In this document: positions 13,714 through 20,757 of the stretch, piece by piece | How the letters are laid out: the number at the start of each line of letters is the position of its first letter | How positions within the stretch are numbered: the stretch's first letter is position 1 | From: an uncultured Pseudomonadota bacterium | Lineage (GTDB): Bacteria > Desulfobacterota > Syntrophorhabdia > Syntrophorhabdales > Syntrophorhabdaceae | NCBI GenBank assembly: GCA_937862865.1 | Contig: CALMFJ010000001.1 | Coordinates: forward strand, 1 to 38,921 | Direction of reading: 5' to 3' | DNA: 38,921 nt | Notes under the pieces: generated by a model | Seen by the model: only the letters and a program-made list of their open reading frames with translations | What the model was told of the DNA's origin: nothing | Databases searched by the model: none | Translations under genes and position numbers: made by a program

Positions 13714-16215
13714 ATGGATGTTGATGACGTCGAGGTCCAGGACCTTATAGCTCTCTCTACGGAAGATGTTCGTACGGGGCTCAGCGCCGATACCATCCGG
13801 CGTGCCATCCTGGAAAACCTGAATTTCATACAGGGGCGCATACCGCGCATCGCGACAAAGAATGACTGGTACATGGCCCTGGCATATACGGTCCGGGACA
13901 GAATGCTCAGCCACTGGGTCCGTTCTACAGAGGAGCTTCGCGTGAGCTCCCGGGCAGTCTGCTATTTTTCCGCCGAGTTCCTGATGGGCCCGCATCTTGC
14001 CAATGCAATGATCAATCTGGGGATTGACGATCAGGTGAAGGAGGCCGTCCTCAAACTCGGGCTTGACCTCGACGAACTGATGGCCCAGGAGACCGAACCG
14101 GGCCTCGGGAACGGGGGCCTCGGCCGGCTGGCGGCGTGTTTCCTCGATTCGATGGCCACGCAGAAGATCTACGCGCTCGGCTATGGGATCCGTTACGAAT
14201 TCGGCATTTTCGACCAGGAGATAGTGGACGGCTGGCAGCGCGAGAAAACGGACAAGTGGCTTGCGCTCGGCAATCCCTGGGAGATAGCACGGCCCGAGAT
14301 CGCATATTATGTTCAGTTTGGCGGACGCACGGAGCATTACCGTGATGAGAACGGACGTGACCGCATCCGGTGGATACCCGACAGGGTGGTGAAGGGAATG
14401 GCCTATGACACCCCGGTACCGGGGTATAACGTCGAGATCGTCAACGTACTGCGGCTCTGGAAGTCGGAGGCCTGCGAGTCATTTGATTTCCAGGCGTTCA
14501 ATAAGGGCGACTACGACGGTGCCGTGGAAGAAAAAGTCGCGTCGGAAACTATATCAAAAGTGCTCTATCCCAATGATGAACCGGCATCCGGCAAAGAATT
14601 GAGGCTATCCCAGCAGTACTTTTTCGTATCATGCTCCCTGCAGGACATGATCAGGATACACGGCCTGGCCGGGGGGAAACCTGAAAGTTTCCATGAACGG
14701 TACGCGGTCCAGCTGAACGACACGCACCCGTCAATTGCGGTTGCGGAGCTTATGAGGCTTCTTGTCGATCAGTACGCGATCGATTGGGATGCCGCATGGG
14801 AAATAACGGGGAAGACCTTTGCATATACGAACCATACACTGCTTCCTGAGGCGCTCGAGAAATGGCCGGTCTTTCTGCTTGGCCGGGTCCTGCCCCGGCA
14901 TCTCGAGATCATTTACGAGATCAACAGGCGTTTCCTGGATGGGGTGCGGATCACGCATCCCGGCGACGAAGACCTTGTCAGGCGCATATCACTCATAGAC
15001 GAGACGGGCGAGAGATACGTGCGGATGGCACATCTCGCCACGGTGGGCAGCCATAGTGTCAACGGGGTGGCGGCCCTGCATACCGAGCTCCTGCAAAGAA
15101 CGATCATGAAGGATTTTCATGAATTGGCCCCGGGAAAGTTCCACAATGTTACAAACGGTGTGACGCCTCGCCGATGGATGATGGTGAGCAACCCGGCCAT
15201 GGCAAGGCTTATCACGGATGCGATAGGTGACGGCTGGGTTTGCAATTGCCAGAACGAGGTCCGTCGCCTCGAGACGTTTGCCGACGACCCGGAGTTCCGG
15301 AAGGCGTGGCATGCCGTGAAGCGCCAGAACAAAATAGCCCTCGCCCGGGCCATCGAGGACCGGACGGGCATCGTGGTTGACCCTGAAAGTCTCTTCGATA
15401 TCCAGGTAAAGCGTATCCATGAATACAAGCGCCAGCACCTGAACGCCCTTCACGTTATCGCGTACTACCTGGAATTGAAGCGCCGCCCTGAGGCCGGCCT
15501 CCCCAAACGCACCGTTATTTTCGGAGGCAAGGCCGCGCCGGGATATTTTATGGCAAAGCTGATGATCAAGCTCATCACGTCGATAGCGGGCGTTGTCAAC
15601 GCCGATCCGGAAGTGTCCGGGCGGCTTAAGGTCGTGTTCTTTCCCGACTTCAACGTGAAGAACGGGCAGATGATCTACCCGGCCGCCGACATTTCGGAAC
15701 AGATATCGACGGCGGGAAAAGAGGCCTCGGGGACAGGCAATATGAAATTCTCGATGAACGGCGCGCTGACGATCGGTACGCTCGATGGCGCAAATGTCGA
15801 GATACGCGAAGAGGTCGGCCAGGAGAATTTTTTTCTGTTCGGGCTTGATTCCCGGCAGGTGTTTGAGCTGAAGGCGTGCGGCTACGATCCGCGCGCGTAC
15901 TATGAGGAGAACGCGGGCCTTCGGGAGGCGATCGATCTCGTTGGTTCCGGTTATTTTTCGAAGGGCGACAGGGACCTTTTCCGTCCGCTCGTCGATTCCC
16001 TTCTCAACCGTGACGAATATATGTTGTGCGCCGATTATCAGTCCTATATCGATTGTCAGAGCGATATCACATCAGCGTACAGCGACATCGACCACTGGCT
16101 CAGGATGTCGATCATCAATGTTGCCCGGACGGGGAAGTTCTCATCGGACCGTTCCATCGTGGAGTATGCCGCGAAGATATGGAAGGTGGCGCCGTCGAGA
16201 ACGCCTGATCCGTAA
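13714..16215 (+). CDS. glgP: Glycogen/starch/maltodextrin phosphorylase
   Basis: Pyridoxal-phosphate enzyme releasing glucose-1-phosphate from alpha-1,4-glucans. It has 833 residues, the normal family length. Visible signatures are GLGNGGLGRLAACFLDSMAT near the N-terminus, VQLNDTHPSIAVAELMRLL in the middle and EASGTGNMKFSMNGALTIGT, in which Lys678 should bind PLP. FDIQVKRIHEYKRQ lies before it. The reading frame extends to an ATG at 13627 that would overlap the TauE-like gene. ATG 13714 is the better start because AGGAGG lies at 13702-13707 and the conserved sequence begins shortly after. It implies that the organism stores glycogen or uses maltodextrins. No other glycogen genes are in the window. 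Confidence 0.97.
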   Translation: MDVDDVEVQDLIALSTEDVRTGLSADTIRRAILENLNFIQGRIPRIATKNDWYMALAYTVRDRMLSHWVRSTEELRVSSRAVCYFSAEFLMGPHLANAMINLGIDDQVKEAVLKLGLDLDELMAQETEPGLGNGGLGRLAACFLDSMATQKIYALGYGIRYEFGIFDQEIVDGWQREKTDKWLALGNPWEIARPEIAYYVQFGGRTEHYRDENGRDRIRWIPDRVVKGMAYDTPVPGYNVEIVNVLRLWKSEACESFDFQAFNKGDYDGAVEEKVASETISKVLYPNDEPASGKELRLSQQYFFVSCSLQDMIRIHGLAGGKPESFHERYAVQLNDTHPSIAVAELMRLLVDQYAIDWDAAWEITGKTFAYTNHTLLPEALEKWPVFLLGRVLPRHLEIIYEINRRFLDGVRITHPGDEDLVRRISLIDETGERYVRMAHLATVGSHSVNGVAALHTELLQRTIMKDFHELAPGKFHNVTNGVTPRRWMMVSNPAMARLITDAIGDGWVCNCQNEVRRLETFADDPEFRKAWHAVKRQNKIALARAIEDRTGIVVDPESLFDIQVKRIHEYKRQHLNALHVIAYYLELKRRPEAGLPKRTVIFGGKAAPGYFMAKLMIKLITSIAGVVNADPEVSGRLKVVFFPDFNVKNGQMIYPAADISEQISTAGKEASGTGNMKFSMNGALTIGTLDGANVEIREEVGQENFFLFGLDSRQVFELKACGYDPRAYYEENAGLREAIDLVGSGYFSKGDRDLFRPLVDSLLNRDEYMLCADYQSYIDCQSDITSAYSDIDHWLRMSIINVARTGKFSSDRSIVEYAAKIWKVAPSRTPDP

Positions 16216-16239: not shown

Positions 16240-16290
16240 TTGATTTATTTTGGTAAACCCGTATATAGTCTTAATAGACACTATATACGG
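16240..16290 (+). promoter_or_regulatory. Promoter with overlapping perfect inverted-repeat operator
   Basis: TTGATT (16240-16245), an 18-bp spacer and TATAGT (16264-16269) form a good sigma-70 promoter. A perfect 11-bp inverted repeat, CCGTATATAGT (16259-16269) and ACTATATACGG (16280-16290) with a 10-base spacer, covers the -10 box and the start region. It ends a few bases before the GGAAGGA ribosome-binding site. The position is typical of a repressor operator. Alternatively the mRNA could fold into a 5' hairpin that protects or hides the start. Confidence 0.6.
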
Positions 16291-16304
16291 TCCAGGGAAG
16301 GACG

Positions 16305-16616
16305 ATGAAACGATCTAAGGCAATCACTCTTGTCCTGCTGACAGGCACGCTTCTGTTGCCTGCCTGTGGTGATGAAGAAAATATGAGGAACAAGTACGCG
16401 AGCTGGGATGACTGTGTGGCCGATTACAAAGACCCCTCCAAATGCACACGGTCGGAAGAGAGAACAACGACGGGGGCCCGCTATTTTTACTATGGCCCGT
16501 GGTACACTGCGTCCCGCTTTAGAAATTCAACCTATAATCCCGGCTATTCGAGCGGGAGAAGTGTCGGGATCTCCCGCGGCGGGTTCGGCTCCTCGGGGCA
16601 TTTCTCGGGGTCGTGA
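16305..16616 (+). CDS. Small YgiB-like (DUF1190-like) lipoprotein
   Basis: Protein of 103 residues with a lipoprotein signal: MKRSK, a hydrophobic stretch, then the lipobox LPAC with Cys21 as the lipidated residue. Asp at +3 and Glu at +4 do not match the simple inner-membrane retention rule (Asp at +2), so sorting is uncertain. Two short motifs match my recollection of E. coli YgiB: YASWDDCVADYKDPSKC corresponds to its Y-A-T-R-E-D-C-V-A-E-F segment followed by a Cys, and SRGGFGSSG corresponds to its TRGGFG tail. The protein is about half the size of YgiB and lacks its Gln/Met-rich middle. The gene after it is a YgiC homologue, the same neighbour as in E. coli, which supports the assignment. 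ATG 16305 has GGAAGGA upstream. The function of the family is not established. Confidence 0.7.
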   Translation: MKRSKAITLVLLTGTLLLPACGDEENMRNKYASWDDCVADYKDPSKCTRSEERTTTGARYFYYGPWYTASRFRNSTYNPGYSSGRSVGISRGGFGSSGHFSGS

Positions 16617-16620
16617 TACT

Positions 16621-17739
16621 ATGCGGCGGATACAGCTCGAAAGGACACGTGAGAACTGGCAGGAAAGGGTAGAGGACATCGGCTTTTACTACTATGAGAT
16701 CGACGGGTCACCGTACTGGGACGAATCGGTATATTACGAATTTACCTCCGGCCAGATAGATGAGCTCGAAGAGGTTACCGAAGATCTGTACGGCAAATGC
16801 AAAAAGCTCGTCGATTATGTCTTTCAGAATGATCTTGGTGAGCGCATGGGCATACCCGGGCCTTTTTTCGAATATGCCCGTGATTCATGGCGTAACGGGG
16901 AACCGACCATCTACGGGAGGTTCGATTTCTGGTGGGACGGCCTCTCCGACCCGAAACTTCTGGAATTTAATGCAGATACGCCGACCGCGCTTTTCGAGGC
17001 GAGCGTCGTACAGTATTACTGGCTCCAGGACATGTTTCCCGGTAAGGACCAGTTCAACTCGATCCATGAAAAGCTCCTTGAGGCCCTCAGCGGAAAGATC
17101 CGCCGGTACTGCTCGTATGAAACGTTCTATACATCGTCCGTGCAGGATAATCTCGAGGACCTGACAACAACGGAATACCTGCGTGACGTAGCGACACAGG
17201 CAGGGCTCAAGACCGAACACATCTATGTTGACGACATCGGGTACGACGAGAGCAACAGGTGTTTCGTCGACCTCGAGGAAAGGCGCATCCGCTACATATT
17301 CAAACTGTATCCGTGGGAATGGATGGTCCGCGAGGAGTTCGGGCCGCGTCTTCTCGAGAGGAGCCTTAACCTGCTCGAACCTCCCTGGAAGATGGTTTTG
17401 AGCAACAAGGCCATCCTGCCGATACTCTGGGAGATGTACCCCGGTCACAGAAACCTCCTGCCGTCCTATTTTGAACCGCGGTCGGATGGCGTGACGTACG
17501 TCGAAAAACCTTTTTTTTCCCGGGAAGGTGAGGACATCGTGGTCCGTCCCCATTTCAGCGCGGCGAAGCCGGGGTCTGTTTATCAGGAATATCGCCAGCT
17601 GCCGGGGTATTCCGGGAATTACCCCGTGATAGGCTCCTGGGTGATAGACGAGATGTCCGCAGGCATAGGAATTCGAGAAGATACGAGCCCTATAACGAAC
17701 AATATGAGCCGATTTGTCCCTCACGCCTTTGACAATTGA
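16621..17739 (+). CDS. YgiC-like glutathionylspermidine-synthase-family ATP-grasp ligase
   Basis: Protein of 372 residues, near E. coli YgiC/YjfC (386). It shares the family signatures: RFDFWWDGLSDPKLLEFNADTPT (Asn117, Asp119), FKLYPWEWM, LSNKAILPILWEMYPGHRNLLPSYF in two stretches, KPFFSREGE and the C-terminal SAGIGIREDTSPITNNMSRFVPH. The fold is that of the ATP-grasp synthetase half of glutathionylspermidine synthase; the amidase half is absent. It presumably ligates an amine or peptide to a carboxylate, but the substrate of YgiC-type proteins is unknown to me. The frame is open back to 16408 but that would run through the lipoprotein gene; ATG 16621, 4 bp after the lipoprotein stop, is right by family alignment although its ribosome-binding site is weak. 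Confidence 0.92.
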   Translation: MRRIQLERTRENWQERVEDIGFYYYEIDGSPYWDESVYYEFTSGQIDELEEVTEDLYGKCKKLVDYVFQNDLGERMGIPGPFFEYARDSWRNGEPTIYGRFDFWWDGLSDPKLLEFNADTPTALFEASVVQYYWLQDMFPGKDQFNSIHEKLLEALSGKIRRYCSYETFYTSSVQDNLEDLTTTEYLRDVATQAGLKTEHIYVDDIGYDESNRCFVDLEERRIRYIFKLYPWEWMVREEFGPRLLERSLNLLEPPWKMVLSNKAILPILWEMYPGHRNLLPSYFEPRSDGVTYVEKPFFSREGEDIVVRPHFSAAKPGSVYQEYRQLPGYSGNYPVIGSWVIDEMSAGIGIREDTSPITNNMSRFVPHAFDN

Positions 17740-17762
17740 GCTCGTGAAAAGAGGAGACAACG

Positions 17763-18200
17763 ATGACGGAACCGGTTGCGGACAGGGGTTTTGAATTTGG
17801 AGCGAAGGAAAATGAGCTCCTCCTGAAATTATCGAAAGATCTCACACGGCTCGGCATTGCAACCCTTGTGGCCGGCATTCTCTTTGTGCTCTACCTGTTC
17901 GTATCTTATTTAGACCCGGCGGCCGTTGTCGAGGTGAGCGAGGCCCGGCACACAGCCCTATCATTCCTCGACTACGTCGTGTGGGGGCTCATCGCCCTCC
18001 TTATCATCTACATGAGCATCACCGTGATCCGGCTCGCCATTCCCATAAAAATGATCGTGACGACCTCAGGCCTCGATATCGCCTACCTCATGAGCTTCGT
18101 AGAAAAACTGGGCGTATTGTCAAAGGTTTCCTTTGTGAGCCTCATCTTCATATGCGTCCTGATGGCCATAAGCCTCATCATGCTGATCCTGGTCTTCTAA
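17763..18200 (+). CDS. Unknown small integral membrane protein in the YgiB/YgiC-like operon
   Basis: Protein of 145 residues with an acidic cytoplasmic-looking N-terminus and three to four hydrophobic segments (LGIATLVAGILFVLYLFVSYL, then VVWGLIALLIIYMSITVIRL and FVSLIFICVLMAISLIMLI). It belongs to no family I recognise. GAGGAG at about 17752 gives a good ribosome-binding site for ATG 17763, and the gap after the ligase is 23 bp, so it is the third gene of the operon. In other bacteria related ATP-grasp ligases are often next to a DUF350 membrane protein (YjfL type); this protein does not resemble DUF350 by eye but may fill the same place (inference). It is followed by a non-coding repeat element. 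Confidence 0.8.
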   Translation: MTEPVADRGFEFGAKENELLLKLSKDLTRLGIATLVAGILFVLYLFVSYLDPAAVVEVSEARHTALSFLDYVVWGLIALLIIYMSITVIRLAIPIKMIVTTSGLDIAYLMSFVEKLGVLSKVSFVSLIFICVLMAISLIMLILVF

Positions 18201-18381: not shown

Positions 18382-19668
18382 TCATCTGTACAGCAAAGCC
18401 TGCGTTCTGTACCAAGACAGTGTGTCGTCGAATTTTCGCAGGTACGTCTGGGTCTCGTTTGGTATGGCGGATGCCCAGTTGCTCCCGTGCCTTTCCATGC
18501 TTGTGCGGGTCCGCCCGGGCCCGCAGTTGTACGCGGACGCGAGGAACCTTCCGAGGGCCGCCGGGTCCTCGAAGAGTTGCTGCCTGCGGGTGTCGCTGAG
18601 CACGTAGAGATCGGCATCGAAGAGAAGGAATGATGCCTTTGCGGCGTTGCGATGGTCCTCCATTCCCCGTACAAAATCCCTGTTGAGGCCTGCATGAGGG
18701 TAAAGGTTCAGAATCCTTTTATAGGTGCCGGGAATGAACTGGAACAGGCCCATCGCCCCGGCCTTTGAGCGTGAATAGCGGTAGGCGTTCTGTTTGTTTG
18801 CTCCCAGGATAACGAGAGTCTCGTTGATAAGCTTTTCGGGGGTGTATCTTCCGCTCAGGTATTTGCCGGGATCGACGTGTTCGATGATGGCGAGAACTAC
18901 AGATATGTCGTTGTCGATAAACGAATTGCATGATCGGGGATTGACACGCCTGCGCACGAGGTCGTCCTTCGCGTCGCCGATAATGTCCCGCAGATAATCG
19001 AGGCCTGCCTTTCGAACCGCGGGGATGTCGATGCCTTCCGAATAAGGGGTATACACGACCTCTTTGAAACTGGCGCCGCTGCGGACGGGCCGTTTAAGCG
19101 CGAGGACAATGTGGTGCTCCTGCGAGATGATCGTGAATTTTGTATTGACGCCGTTCGCCTTACCGGGTTCGATGACCGCGTCTTCAGCGCGTGCCCCGAG
19201 CCTCGGGTGGACCCTGAGGACCTTGATCTCCCGGGTCGGTACATTCTCGACTGCAAGGAGTATTGTAAATTGGGCGAGCTCCGGTTTGCCGTACGTGACC
19301 ACGGTTCTATATTTCTGTTTCTTTTTTCCTTTCTTCCCGACCTTGACCTTTTTAACGATCCTGGGACGCACGACCTTAAACCCGCAGGTTGCCTTTTCGA
19401 GCATCGCCCGTGCCCGCGCGATATCTTCGAAAATGTTAAAGTTGATATCGTCCCTTTTTCCGGACGGGGTGGTTATTTCGATCGGCTCCTCGACTTCGGC
19501 GTCTATCTCGTCGACGTCATCGGCCGGCTGCGCATACGACGGGGTTGAGGGCACAAACGGCCCTGCGCCGAAACAGAGAAGAAAAATTACTAAAATTAAT
19601 GTATTGACAACGTTTTTCAGAAGTGGCCCTTTCCTGTGCCGTCTGCCGGCGCTTGCCTCAATAAACAT
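18382..19668 (-). CDS. Lytic transglycosylase-like (SLT) protein with an unusual N-terminal domain
   Basis: Exported protein of 428 residues. A hydrophobic signal segment (VVNTLILVIFLLCFGAGPFV) is followed by an acidic linker. A basic beta-rich domain of about 150 residues follows, containing a Lys-rich stretch (KKVKVGKKGKKKQKYR). The C-terminal 180 residues resemble the lysozyme-like SLT fold: LAIIEHVDP with a probable catalytic Glu, then SKAGAMGLFQFIPGTY and LASAYNCGPGRTR. About 30 residues are inserted between the Glu and the GAMGLFQF motif compared with standard SLT domains. It should cleave peptidoglycan in the periplasm; the N-terminal domain is not recognised and may bind the wall or a partner. 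The start at ATG 19668 has AGGGA upstream; a few shorter starts before the hydrophobic segment are possible. Confidence 0.8.
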   Translation of the reverse strand: MFIEASAGRRHRKGPLLKNVVNTLILVIFLLCFGAGPFVPSTPSYAQPADDVDEIDAEVEEPIEITTPSGKRDDINFNIFEDIARARAMLEKATCGFKVVRPRIVKKVKVGKKGKKKQKYRTVVTYGKPELAQFTILLAVENVPTREIKVLRVHPRLGARAEDAVIEPGKANGVNTKFTIISQEHHIVLALKRPVRSGASFKEVVYTPYSEGIDIPAVRKAGLDYLRDIIGDAKDDLVRRRVNPRSCNSFIDNDISVVLAIIEHVDPGKYLSGRYTPEKLINETLVILGANKQNAYRYSRSKAGAMGLFQFIPGTYKRILNLYPHAGLNRDFVRGMEDHRNAAKASFLLFDADLYVLSDTRRQQLFEDPAALGRFLASAYNCGPGRTRTSMERHGSNWASAIPNETQTYLRKFDDTLSWYRTQALLYR

Positions 19669-19746: not shown

Positions 19747-20757
19747 TTATTCGCTCGGCTCAAAGACGTATTTTCCCGTTGTATCGATATAGCCCCATTT
19801 TGTTCCCGACTGGACCCGTGCAAGCCCTTCAGAGAAAGGGTCGATATAATCGTACACGGGCTTGATGACCTGCTTGCCGGTACGGTCGATGAAACCCCAC
19901 TTGCTTCCGACCTGTATGCCTGCGAGCCCCTCCGTGAACCTGTTGACCTTCTTGAACTGCGGGGTTATCACGAGCGAACCCGTCTTGTCGATGAAGCCCC
20001 ATTTTCTCTTGACCTGAACACGCGCGAGGCCGTCGGAGAACCTGTTCGCGTTCACGAATCGGGGCTGTATGACAAATATGTCCTGTTTATCTATGTAGCC
20101 GAACTTCTTATTGAGGACGACAGGTGCAAGGCCTTCAGAGAAGGGAAGGGCAAAATCGTAGACAGGCTGTATGGCTGTTTGACCGGAATGGTCGATGTAG
20201 CCGTATTTCTTTCCCACAAGGACGGCTGCAAGACCATCGCTGAAACGGGATATTTCGATGTATTGCGGCTCGATCACTATCTTGCCCGTTCTATCGATGA
20301 AACCCCACTTGCCCTTGAGCTTTATCCCGGCAAGGCCTTCGGAGAACGGCGCTGCATCATCGAATCGGGCGGGAATGACGGTATTGCCCGTTTTATCTAT
20401 GTATCCCCTTTTTCCCTTTACCGCCACTTCCGCCAGCCCGTCGGAAAAACGGTCCGCACCGTCAAACTGAGGCGTGATGACAATAGCGCCCTGCCGGTTC
20501 ATATACCCCCATTTTCCCTTGAGCTGGATGCGTGAAAACCCTTCCGTGAAGGGAAACGCTGCTTCGAATTGCGGCTCGATCACCATCCTGCCCGTTCTAT
20601 CCATAAATCCCCACTTGCCCTCCCGCGAAACGGGGAAAAGTCCCGCCTTGTCCTTATCCTCGATGTCCAGCTGCGAATACCCGGCAGCGCTGATAAAAAA
20701 TACGGCGAGTGCACAAAGCAGGACGGTCACCGAATATGCCCTGACCCTGTTTTTCAT
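19747..20757 (-). CDS. Exported WG-repeat protein
   Basis: Protein of 336 residues with a signal peptide (VTVLLCALAVFFISAAGYSQ) followed by eight full 34-residue WG repeats and one partial repeat. Each unit has the form KWGFIDRTGKIVIEPQY, about 6 residues, then F-S-D/E-G-L-A and a short strand. Odd and even repeats partly alternate PFSEG and RFSDG. WG repeats form beta-propeller-like or solenoid scaffolds, probably for binding; no enzyme activity is known. The start is well supported by CCTCCT (20766-20771), that is AGGAGG on the minus strand, 8 bp upstream. It is transcribed away from the DUF2330-like gene at 20968. Confidence 0.93.
   Translation of the reverse strand: MKNRVRAYSVTVLLCALAVFFISAAGYSQLDIEDKDKAGLFPVSREGKWGFMDRTGRMVIEPQFEAAFPFTEGFSRIQLKGKWGYMNRQGAIVITPQFDGADRFSDGLAEVAVKGKRGYIDKTGNTVIPARFDDAAPFSEGLAGIKLKGKWGFIDRTGKIVIEPQYIEISRFSDGLAAVLVGKKYGYIDHSGQTAIQPVYDFALPFSEGLAPVVLNKKFGYIDKQDIFVIQPRFVNANRFSDGLARVQVKRKWGFIDKTGSLVITPQFKKVNRFTEGLAGIQVGSKWGFIDRTGKQVIKPVYDYIDPFSEGLARVQSGTKWGYIDTTGKYVFEPSE

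Follow-up and report, generated by a model that had tools for sequence, protein, structure and literature searches.

Operons that combine an ATP-grasp ligase, a DUF350 protein with four membrane helices (YjfL type) and a DUF1190 lipoprotein with PspA helpers have been described (PMC11237479). In the window, by which we mean the whole stretch of 38,921 nucleotides that was analysed, three genes in series encode a short lipoprotein, a ligase and a membrane protein. The locus raises the question whether this trio is a minimal version of such operons, as a preliminary description had suggested, and what its ligase acts on. The trio is a reduced form of this kind of operon with a different membrane partner; the novelty lies in the exchange of its third gene, not in its small size.

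Operon layout and conservation

An ORF listing confirmed the three open reading frames at the coordinates first given, all on the + strand (Table 1). The lipoprotein stop and the ligase start are 4 bases apart, the ligase and the membrane protein gene 23 bases. On the 5' side a gene of the glycogen phosphorylase family ends at 16215; on the 3' side a lytic transglycosylase gene (18382-19668, - strand) is convergent with the trio. Beyond it, positions 19747-20757 on the - strand encode a protein with a signal-like N-terminus and nine WG beta repeats (361 bits against PF14903).

Table 1 Features of the three-gene operon (positions in the window)
Feature	Position	Strand	Basis
Putative sigma-70 promoter, TTGATT-18-TATAGT	16240..16269	+	Consensus scan
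Perfect 11-bp inverted repeat, CCGTATATAGT-N10-ACTATATACGG, possible operator	16259..16290		Sequence
Short YgiB/YjfM-like lipoprotein, 103 aa	16305..16616	+	ORF, alignment with 7 relatives, hhalign
Lipobox LPAC (Cys21)	16356..16367	+	Sequence; Cys invariant in family
DC...C motif (D36, C37, C47)	16410..16445	+	Invariant in family alignment
Conserved C-terminal tail, SRGGFGSSGHFSGS-COOH, proposed ligation site	16572..16613	+	RGG[FWY]G and terminal G/S/A, 71/75
YgiC/YjfC-type ATP-grasp peptide-polyamine ligase, 372 aa	16621..17739	+	PF03738, YgiC 7uk8, invariant residues
Three-helix membrane protein, 145 aa, third gene, in DUF350 position	17763..18200	+	ORF, neighbourhood, AlphaFold2
D-x3-W (D70...W74), start of second membrane helix	17970..17984	+	8/8 of membrane-protein family
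T-x-G-x-D-I-x2-L-M segment, common to stand-alone family	18063..18092	+	(Nearly) invariant in alignment; hhalign 97.2%

The putative promoter belongs to a class of sites no more frequent in real than in shuffled sequence; its TTGATT...TATAGT arrangement also stands upstream of the operon in a relative (G004, locus L018). The inverted repeat overlaps the putative -10. It was rejected as a conserved operator, being present in the window only and absent in relatives; elsewhere in the genome there is one imperfect second copy of the site (contig C33).

Among 99 related genomes the membrane protein was found in eight, always directly behind the ligase (8/8; in one of them, G001, the contig ends within the ligase gene), and the trio is therefore conserved rather than a chance association. 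The constant neighbourhood with a YgiC-type gene, which the preliminary description had named as a check, was thus borne out, and an occurrence mostly without such neighbours was not seen. A search of 395 genomes across the phylum returned four strong matches, the same as those already found, and one distant relative (L025, E 3e-7) with no ligase nearby. Three weak matches (L026-L028) were set aside as partial and located inside larger unrelated membrane proteins, and tblastn against phages and plasmids gave no match to the membrane protein.

Ligase and polyamine supply

That the ligase is a full-length YgiC homologue, as first proposed, is confirmed by 452 bits against PF03738 (cut-off 29.3) over profile positions 1-370 of 371, and by a sequence match to YgiC (7uk8, E 7e-100) as the closest solved structure, with YjfC (7uk6) also matched; the next solved relatives are trypanothione and glutathionylspermidine synthetases. 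The conserved ATP-grasp residues are present, and R100, D102, E115, N117, K228, K263, R301 and R352 are invariant in an alignment of 14 diverse ligases. Gss and trypanothione synthetase have a ligase domain homologous to that of the window; unlike Gss, which has an amidase domain, the window protein consists of a single ligase domain, and its substrate is presumed to be a protein or peptide. The genome carries just one copy of the gene.

Peptide-spermidine ligase activity has been published for YgiC and YjfC (Pederick et al. 2023, as cited in PMC12568646 and PMC12270671), and the E. coli K-12 annotation likewise gives this function for both. Spermidine is plausible as a substrate here, since the genome has three polyamine genes in a row. 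Two of the encoded proteins pass their cut-offs, agmatinase with 259.5 bits and an NspC-type decarboxylase with 452 bits; the remaining one, a carboxy(nor)spermidine synthase-like protein, scores 387 bits and falls short of its cut-off of 800. This row is the carboxyspermidine route; two proteins with a spermidine-synthase domain are encoded in addition.

The short lipoprotein

The lipoprotein contains LPAC, DDCVADYKDPSKC and SRGGFG; the proline of its lipobox is unusual, relatives having LLGC or LIGC. With 11 bits against Pfam DUF1190 (PF06693) it stays below the gathering score of 22, as do the short lipoproteins that adjoin DUF350 genes in the same phylum (13-18 bits). When seven members of the family were aligned by profile-profile comparison (hhalign) to YgiB, YjfM and three further sequences, the probability was 91%, rising to 97% once an intermediate, the 128-aa relative L013, was added. 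The lipoprotein signal, the DC..C segment and the C-terminal RGG[FWY]G tail beside a PF03738 ligase are all present. The protein is therefore named YgiB/YjfM-like and not a DUF1190 member. Of the earlier assignment, the YgiB type stands, on the profile-profile comparison and the tail; the DUF1190 match proposed as its check misses the Pfam threshold, a result outweighed by hhalign and the conservation of the tail.

The small size of the protein is no peculiarity, because short lipoproteins of 97-135 aa occur widely, both in phages and in bacteria of the phylum. The reading of the locus as a minimal version had to be given up: short lipoprotein, ligase and third gene form the ordinary arrangement in the phylum and in many phages, normally with DUF350, and in E. 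coli YjfL-YjfM-YjfC (DUF350, DUF1190 lipoprotein, peptide-spermidine ligase) genes of these three kinds already adjoin one another. The window shares with YjfL-YjfM-YjfC a homologous ligase and a YgiB/YjfM-like lipoprotein with an RGG[FY]G tail; it differs in the order lipoprotein, ligase, membrane protein, in a lipoprotein of half the size, in a membrane protein of another family and in having no YjfI, PspA or YjfK genes. E. coli YgiB-YgiC has the lipoprotein directly 5' of the ligase, as in the window, and the ligases are 43% identical; unlike the window it has no membrane protein gene, and its lipoprotein has 223 aa. The operons of short lipoprotein, ligase and DUF350 in the phylum and in large phages (L155, L156, L157, L160-L162, L062, L095) resemble the window in gene kinds and sizes, and the bacterial ones also have its gene order; they differ from it in the third gene.

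Exchange of the membrane partner

A ligase followed by DUF350 was found in eight loci from other genomes of the phylum (L011, L013, L155, L156, L157, L160, L161, L162), nearly all with the short lipoprotein first; in L158, L163 and L019 a long form of DUF350 takes this place. In the sampled genomes that bear a ligase, the new partner is present in 8, DUF350 in 11, neither in 2 and both in none (Fisher p 2e-4 for exclusivity, a value that ignores kinship). In a tree of 96 ligase sequences the seven ligases with the exchanged partner form one clade (SH-aLRT 100), sister (98) to six DUF350-type ligases of the phylum (L157, L160-L162, L011, L013), and the partner label changes once. Because these ligases are a single clade, sister to the DUF350 type, the partner was swapped once, within an existing type of operon. 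Such a natural swap offers a comparison that reveals what the module requires of its membrane protein.

The membrane protein had been described as unrecognised, and it indeed has no match in Pfam or NCBIfam. AlphaFold2 places helices at residues 14-50, 61-100 and 106-144 (mean pLDDT 71, pTM 0.61); with two models, Foldseek gave no match in the PDB with E under 0.3. Its distant relative L025 belongs with stand-alone proteins (L168-L172) that begin with a YEF..EN/QN motif and carry T-x-G-x-D-I/L-x2-L-M ahead of the final helix. These are homologous to the window protein over most of its length (hhalign with the window family 97.2%, P 3e-11, 107 columns). Unlike it they lack D-x3-W and have no ligase nearby, their neighbours being H+-pyrophosphatase (L171, L172), a substrate-binding protein or other genes.

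The third gene could instead be a highly diverged DUF350 that evolved in place, a reading that concerns this gene only and is otherwise compatible with the explanation of the trio given below. It has the same position and size in its favour, and the two families share the D-x3-W helix start. Of 24,736 Pfam families DUF350 comes out best for the window family, with E 1.3 in one of its eight members; when 3,581 ORFs were searched, the DUF350 proteins ranked just after the true relatives and three weak partial matches; and hhalign of the window family with two DUF350 alignments gave 42-47%, centred on one helix, against 0.1% for reversed controls. The window protein itself does not reach the gathering score of PF03994 (DUF350). 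Against an origin from DUF350 stand the 107-column homology to the stand-alone three-helix proteins, themselves unlike DUF350 (hhalign 0.8%), the prediction of three helices and not four, and the missing TPY-E and GN-AAA segments of DUF350. Tests by hhalign with reversed controls, by reciprocal hmmsearch and by scanning eight members against the whole of Pfam left only a weak local signal round one helix, and assignment of the protein to DUF350 was rejected. We consider divergence in place rather improbable and hold with good confidence that the third gene is a replacement.

The D-x3-W helix start was noticed in this analysis and is no published criterion for DUF350. All 8 members of the window family have it, as do 23/25 DUF350 proteins; it occurs in 2/161 other membrane ORFs at these loci and in 0/6 relatives without a ligase. 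Since the samples consist of related sequences, this sharing is a lead and not a test. Judged also by the charge pattern, the D-x3-W end of the window protein is probably periplasmic, and for this reason it may point towards the lipoprotein and not towards the ligase.

The lipoprotein tail and the proposed substrate of the ligase

Beside most ligases examined, bacterial and phage, there is a lipoprotein whose tail is anchored to the stop codon. In 75 ligase-linked lipoproteins, selected by a glycine motif within the last 60 residues, the last residue is G in 38, S in 24, A in 9 and E in 4, and the ending GG occurs in 35 (47%), from bacteria, plasmids and phages; for 517 other ORFs at the loci, terminal G/S/A amounts to 24% and GG to 0.2%. 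A second search was blind to the tail and used the lipobox alone, with a pattern that missed the window's own protein (LPAC), though the tail is present there. Of its 80 candidates 60 have the tail, with G/S/A at position -1 in 93% and G at -2 in 77% of these, and mostly 7-12 residues between RGGFG and the C-terminus; at most of the positions further from the end the value is 40-80%. The tail is rich in G/S throughout (55-90% G/S/A at positions -3 to -13), so the terminal preference is partly one of composition. A strict rule of C-terminal GG was rejected, the lineage of the window ending in S or G; the G/S/A rule holds. Of 16 other lipoproteins at these loci one ends in G/S/A, and the endings are mostly K, N or Q; given this difference from the stop-anchored G/S/A ending, the C-terminal end of the ligase-linked lipoproteins is probably under a constraint of its own.

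Glutathionylspermidine synthetase, like trypanothione synthetase, joins spermidine to the carboxylate of the C-terminal Gly of glutathione. With that precedent, the simplest reading of the conserved tail is that the lipoprotein C-terminus serves as the carboxyl substrate, which suggests that the lipoprotein is the substrate of its own ligase. We give an even chance to the trio being an envelope module akin to YjfL-YjfM-YjfC that modifies its lipoprotein, with the ligase adding a polyamine to the C-terminus. The cytosolic ATP-grasp ligase would use ATP to activate the C-terminal carboxylate of the lipoprotein precursor (SRGGFG...G/S/A-COOH) and would join it to a polyamine, most likely spermidine. 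Ligation would precede export; a precursor of 103 aa probably leaves the cytosol once its translation is complete, so that a cytosolic enzyme could reach it. The modified precursor would then be exported, lipidated at Cys21 and held in the envelope, its C-terminal tail now cationic. We infer for the inner-membrane protein the role of a docking site or sensor that would couple the ligase, the lipoprotein and the state of the envelope; in this lineage the usual DUF350 was replaced once by a protein of a different three-helix family with the same D-x3-W helix start. The terminal Glu in 4/75 and the ending of the window lineage in S or G, not in the commonest GG, count against ligation at the tail, as does its overall G/S-rich composition.

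The ligase might also make a free peptide-polyamine conjugate, with the lipoprotein and the membrane protein binding, sensing or exporting the product and the lipoprotein being no substrate. The kinship of the ligase to glutathionylspermidine and trypanothione synthetases, which use small-molecule substrates, is in keeping with this, as is the peptide-spermidine ligase activity under which YgiC/YjfC was published (by the title cited in PMC12568646). We think it unlikely, as it leaves the G/S/A-restricted end of the lipoprotein and the RGGFG upstream of it unexplained, in bacteria and phages alike. Smaller still is the probability we attach to a membrane stress module of the PspA type, without lipoprotein conjugation, in which the tail would be a glycine-rich or metal-binding envelope segment and the ligase would act on another protein or on a polyamine stress metabolite. 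DUF1190 has been described as a lipoprotein that chelates metal and shares operons with PspA, DUF350 and an ATP-grasp ligase (PMC11237479); the three-gene forms seen here, however, lack PspA and its helpers, and the conservation of the tail is anchored to the stop codon, not spread.

Returning to ligation at the lipoprotein tail, we tentatively extend it, as an idea we still find somewhat doubtful, to the YgiC/YjfC-type ligases of bacteria and large phages in general: each may join a polyamine to the last residue of the lipoprotein that is its partner, with an inner-membrane partner exchangeable between two families that share only the D-x3-W start for coupling. The stop-codon-anchored rule makes the question of the natural YgiC/YjfC substrate testable by mass spectrometry. 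The literature search, which covered papers open without subscription, found none that names the lipoprotein as a substrate of the ligase; a polyamine on a lipoprotein C-terminus, if true, would be a protein modification not described in the accessible literature.

Related gene sets in phages

Large phages carry the same gene set, which may thus matter for control of the envelope during infection. In Achromobacter phage Motura (L062) the short lipoprotein, the ligase and DUF350 follow in series behind a saccharopine-dehydrogenase-type gene (1303-2613) that is annotated as homospermidine synthase and lies directly upstream of the lipoprotein, an arrangement in line with the proposed ligation of a polyamine. 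Viral contigs of one clade (L072, L075, L076, L085, L089, L093, L125) have a second small lipoprotein of 109-135 aa beside the ligase and the GGFG lipoprotein, often with a YxxYITVK-like ending; the one tested had no Pfam match. In five large viral contigs (L079, L082, L087, L088, L090) an extra lipoprotein of 147-176 aa, without Pfam match in the two tested, stands between the GGFG lipoprotein and the ligase, and DUF350 stands behind the ligase, giving a four-gene phage form.

Half-length DUF350-like proteins (72-96 aa) are encoded upstream of phage ligases, at 2097-2315 in L083 and similarly in L092, L080, L078 and L074; the one of L083 matches DUF350 profile positions 71-133 with 39.7 bits. 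With E about 1e-5 to 1e-8, and perhaps by composition only, the DUF350 profile also matches, weakly, two-helix proteins of 69-73 aa (contig C11 of genome G000, 18842-19024, and homologues in relatives) that resemble ATP synthase c subunits.
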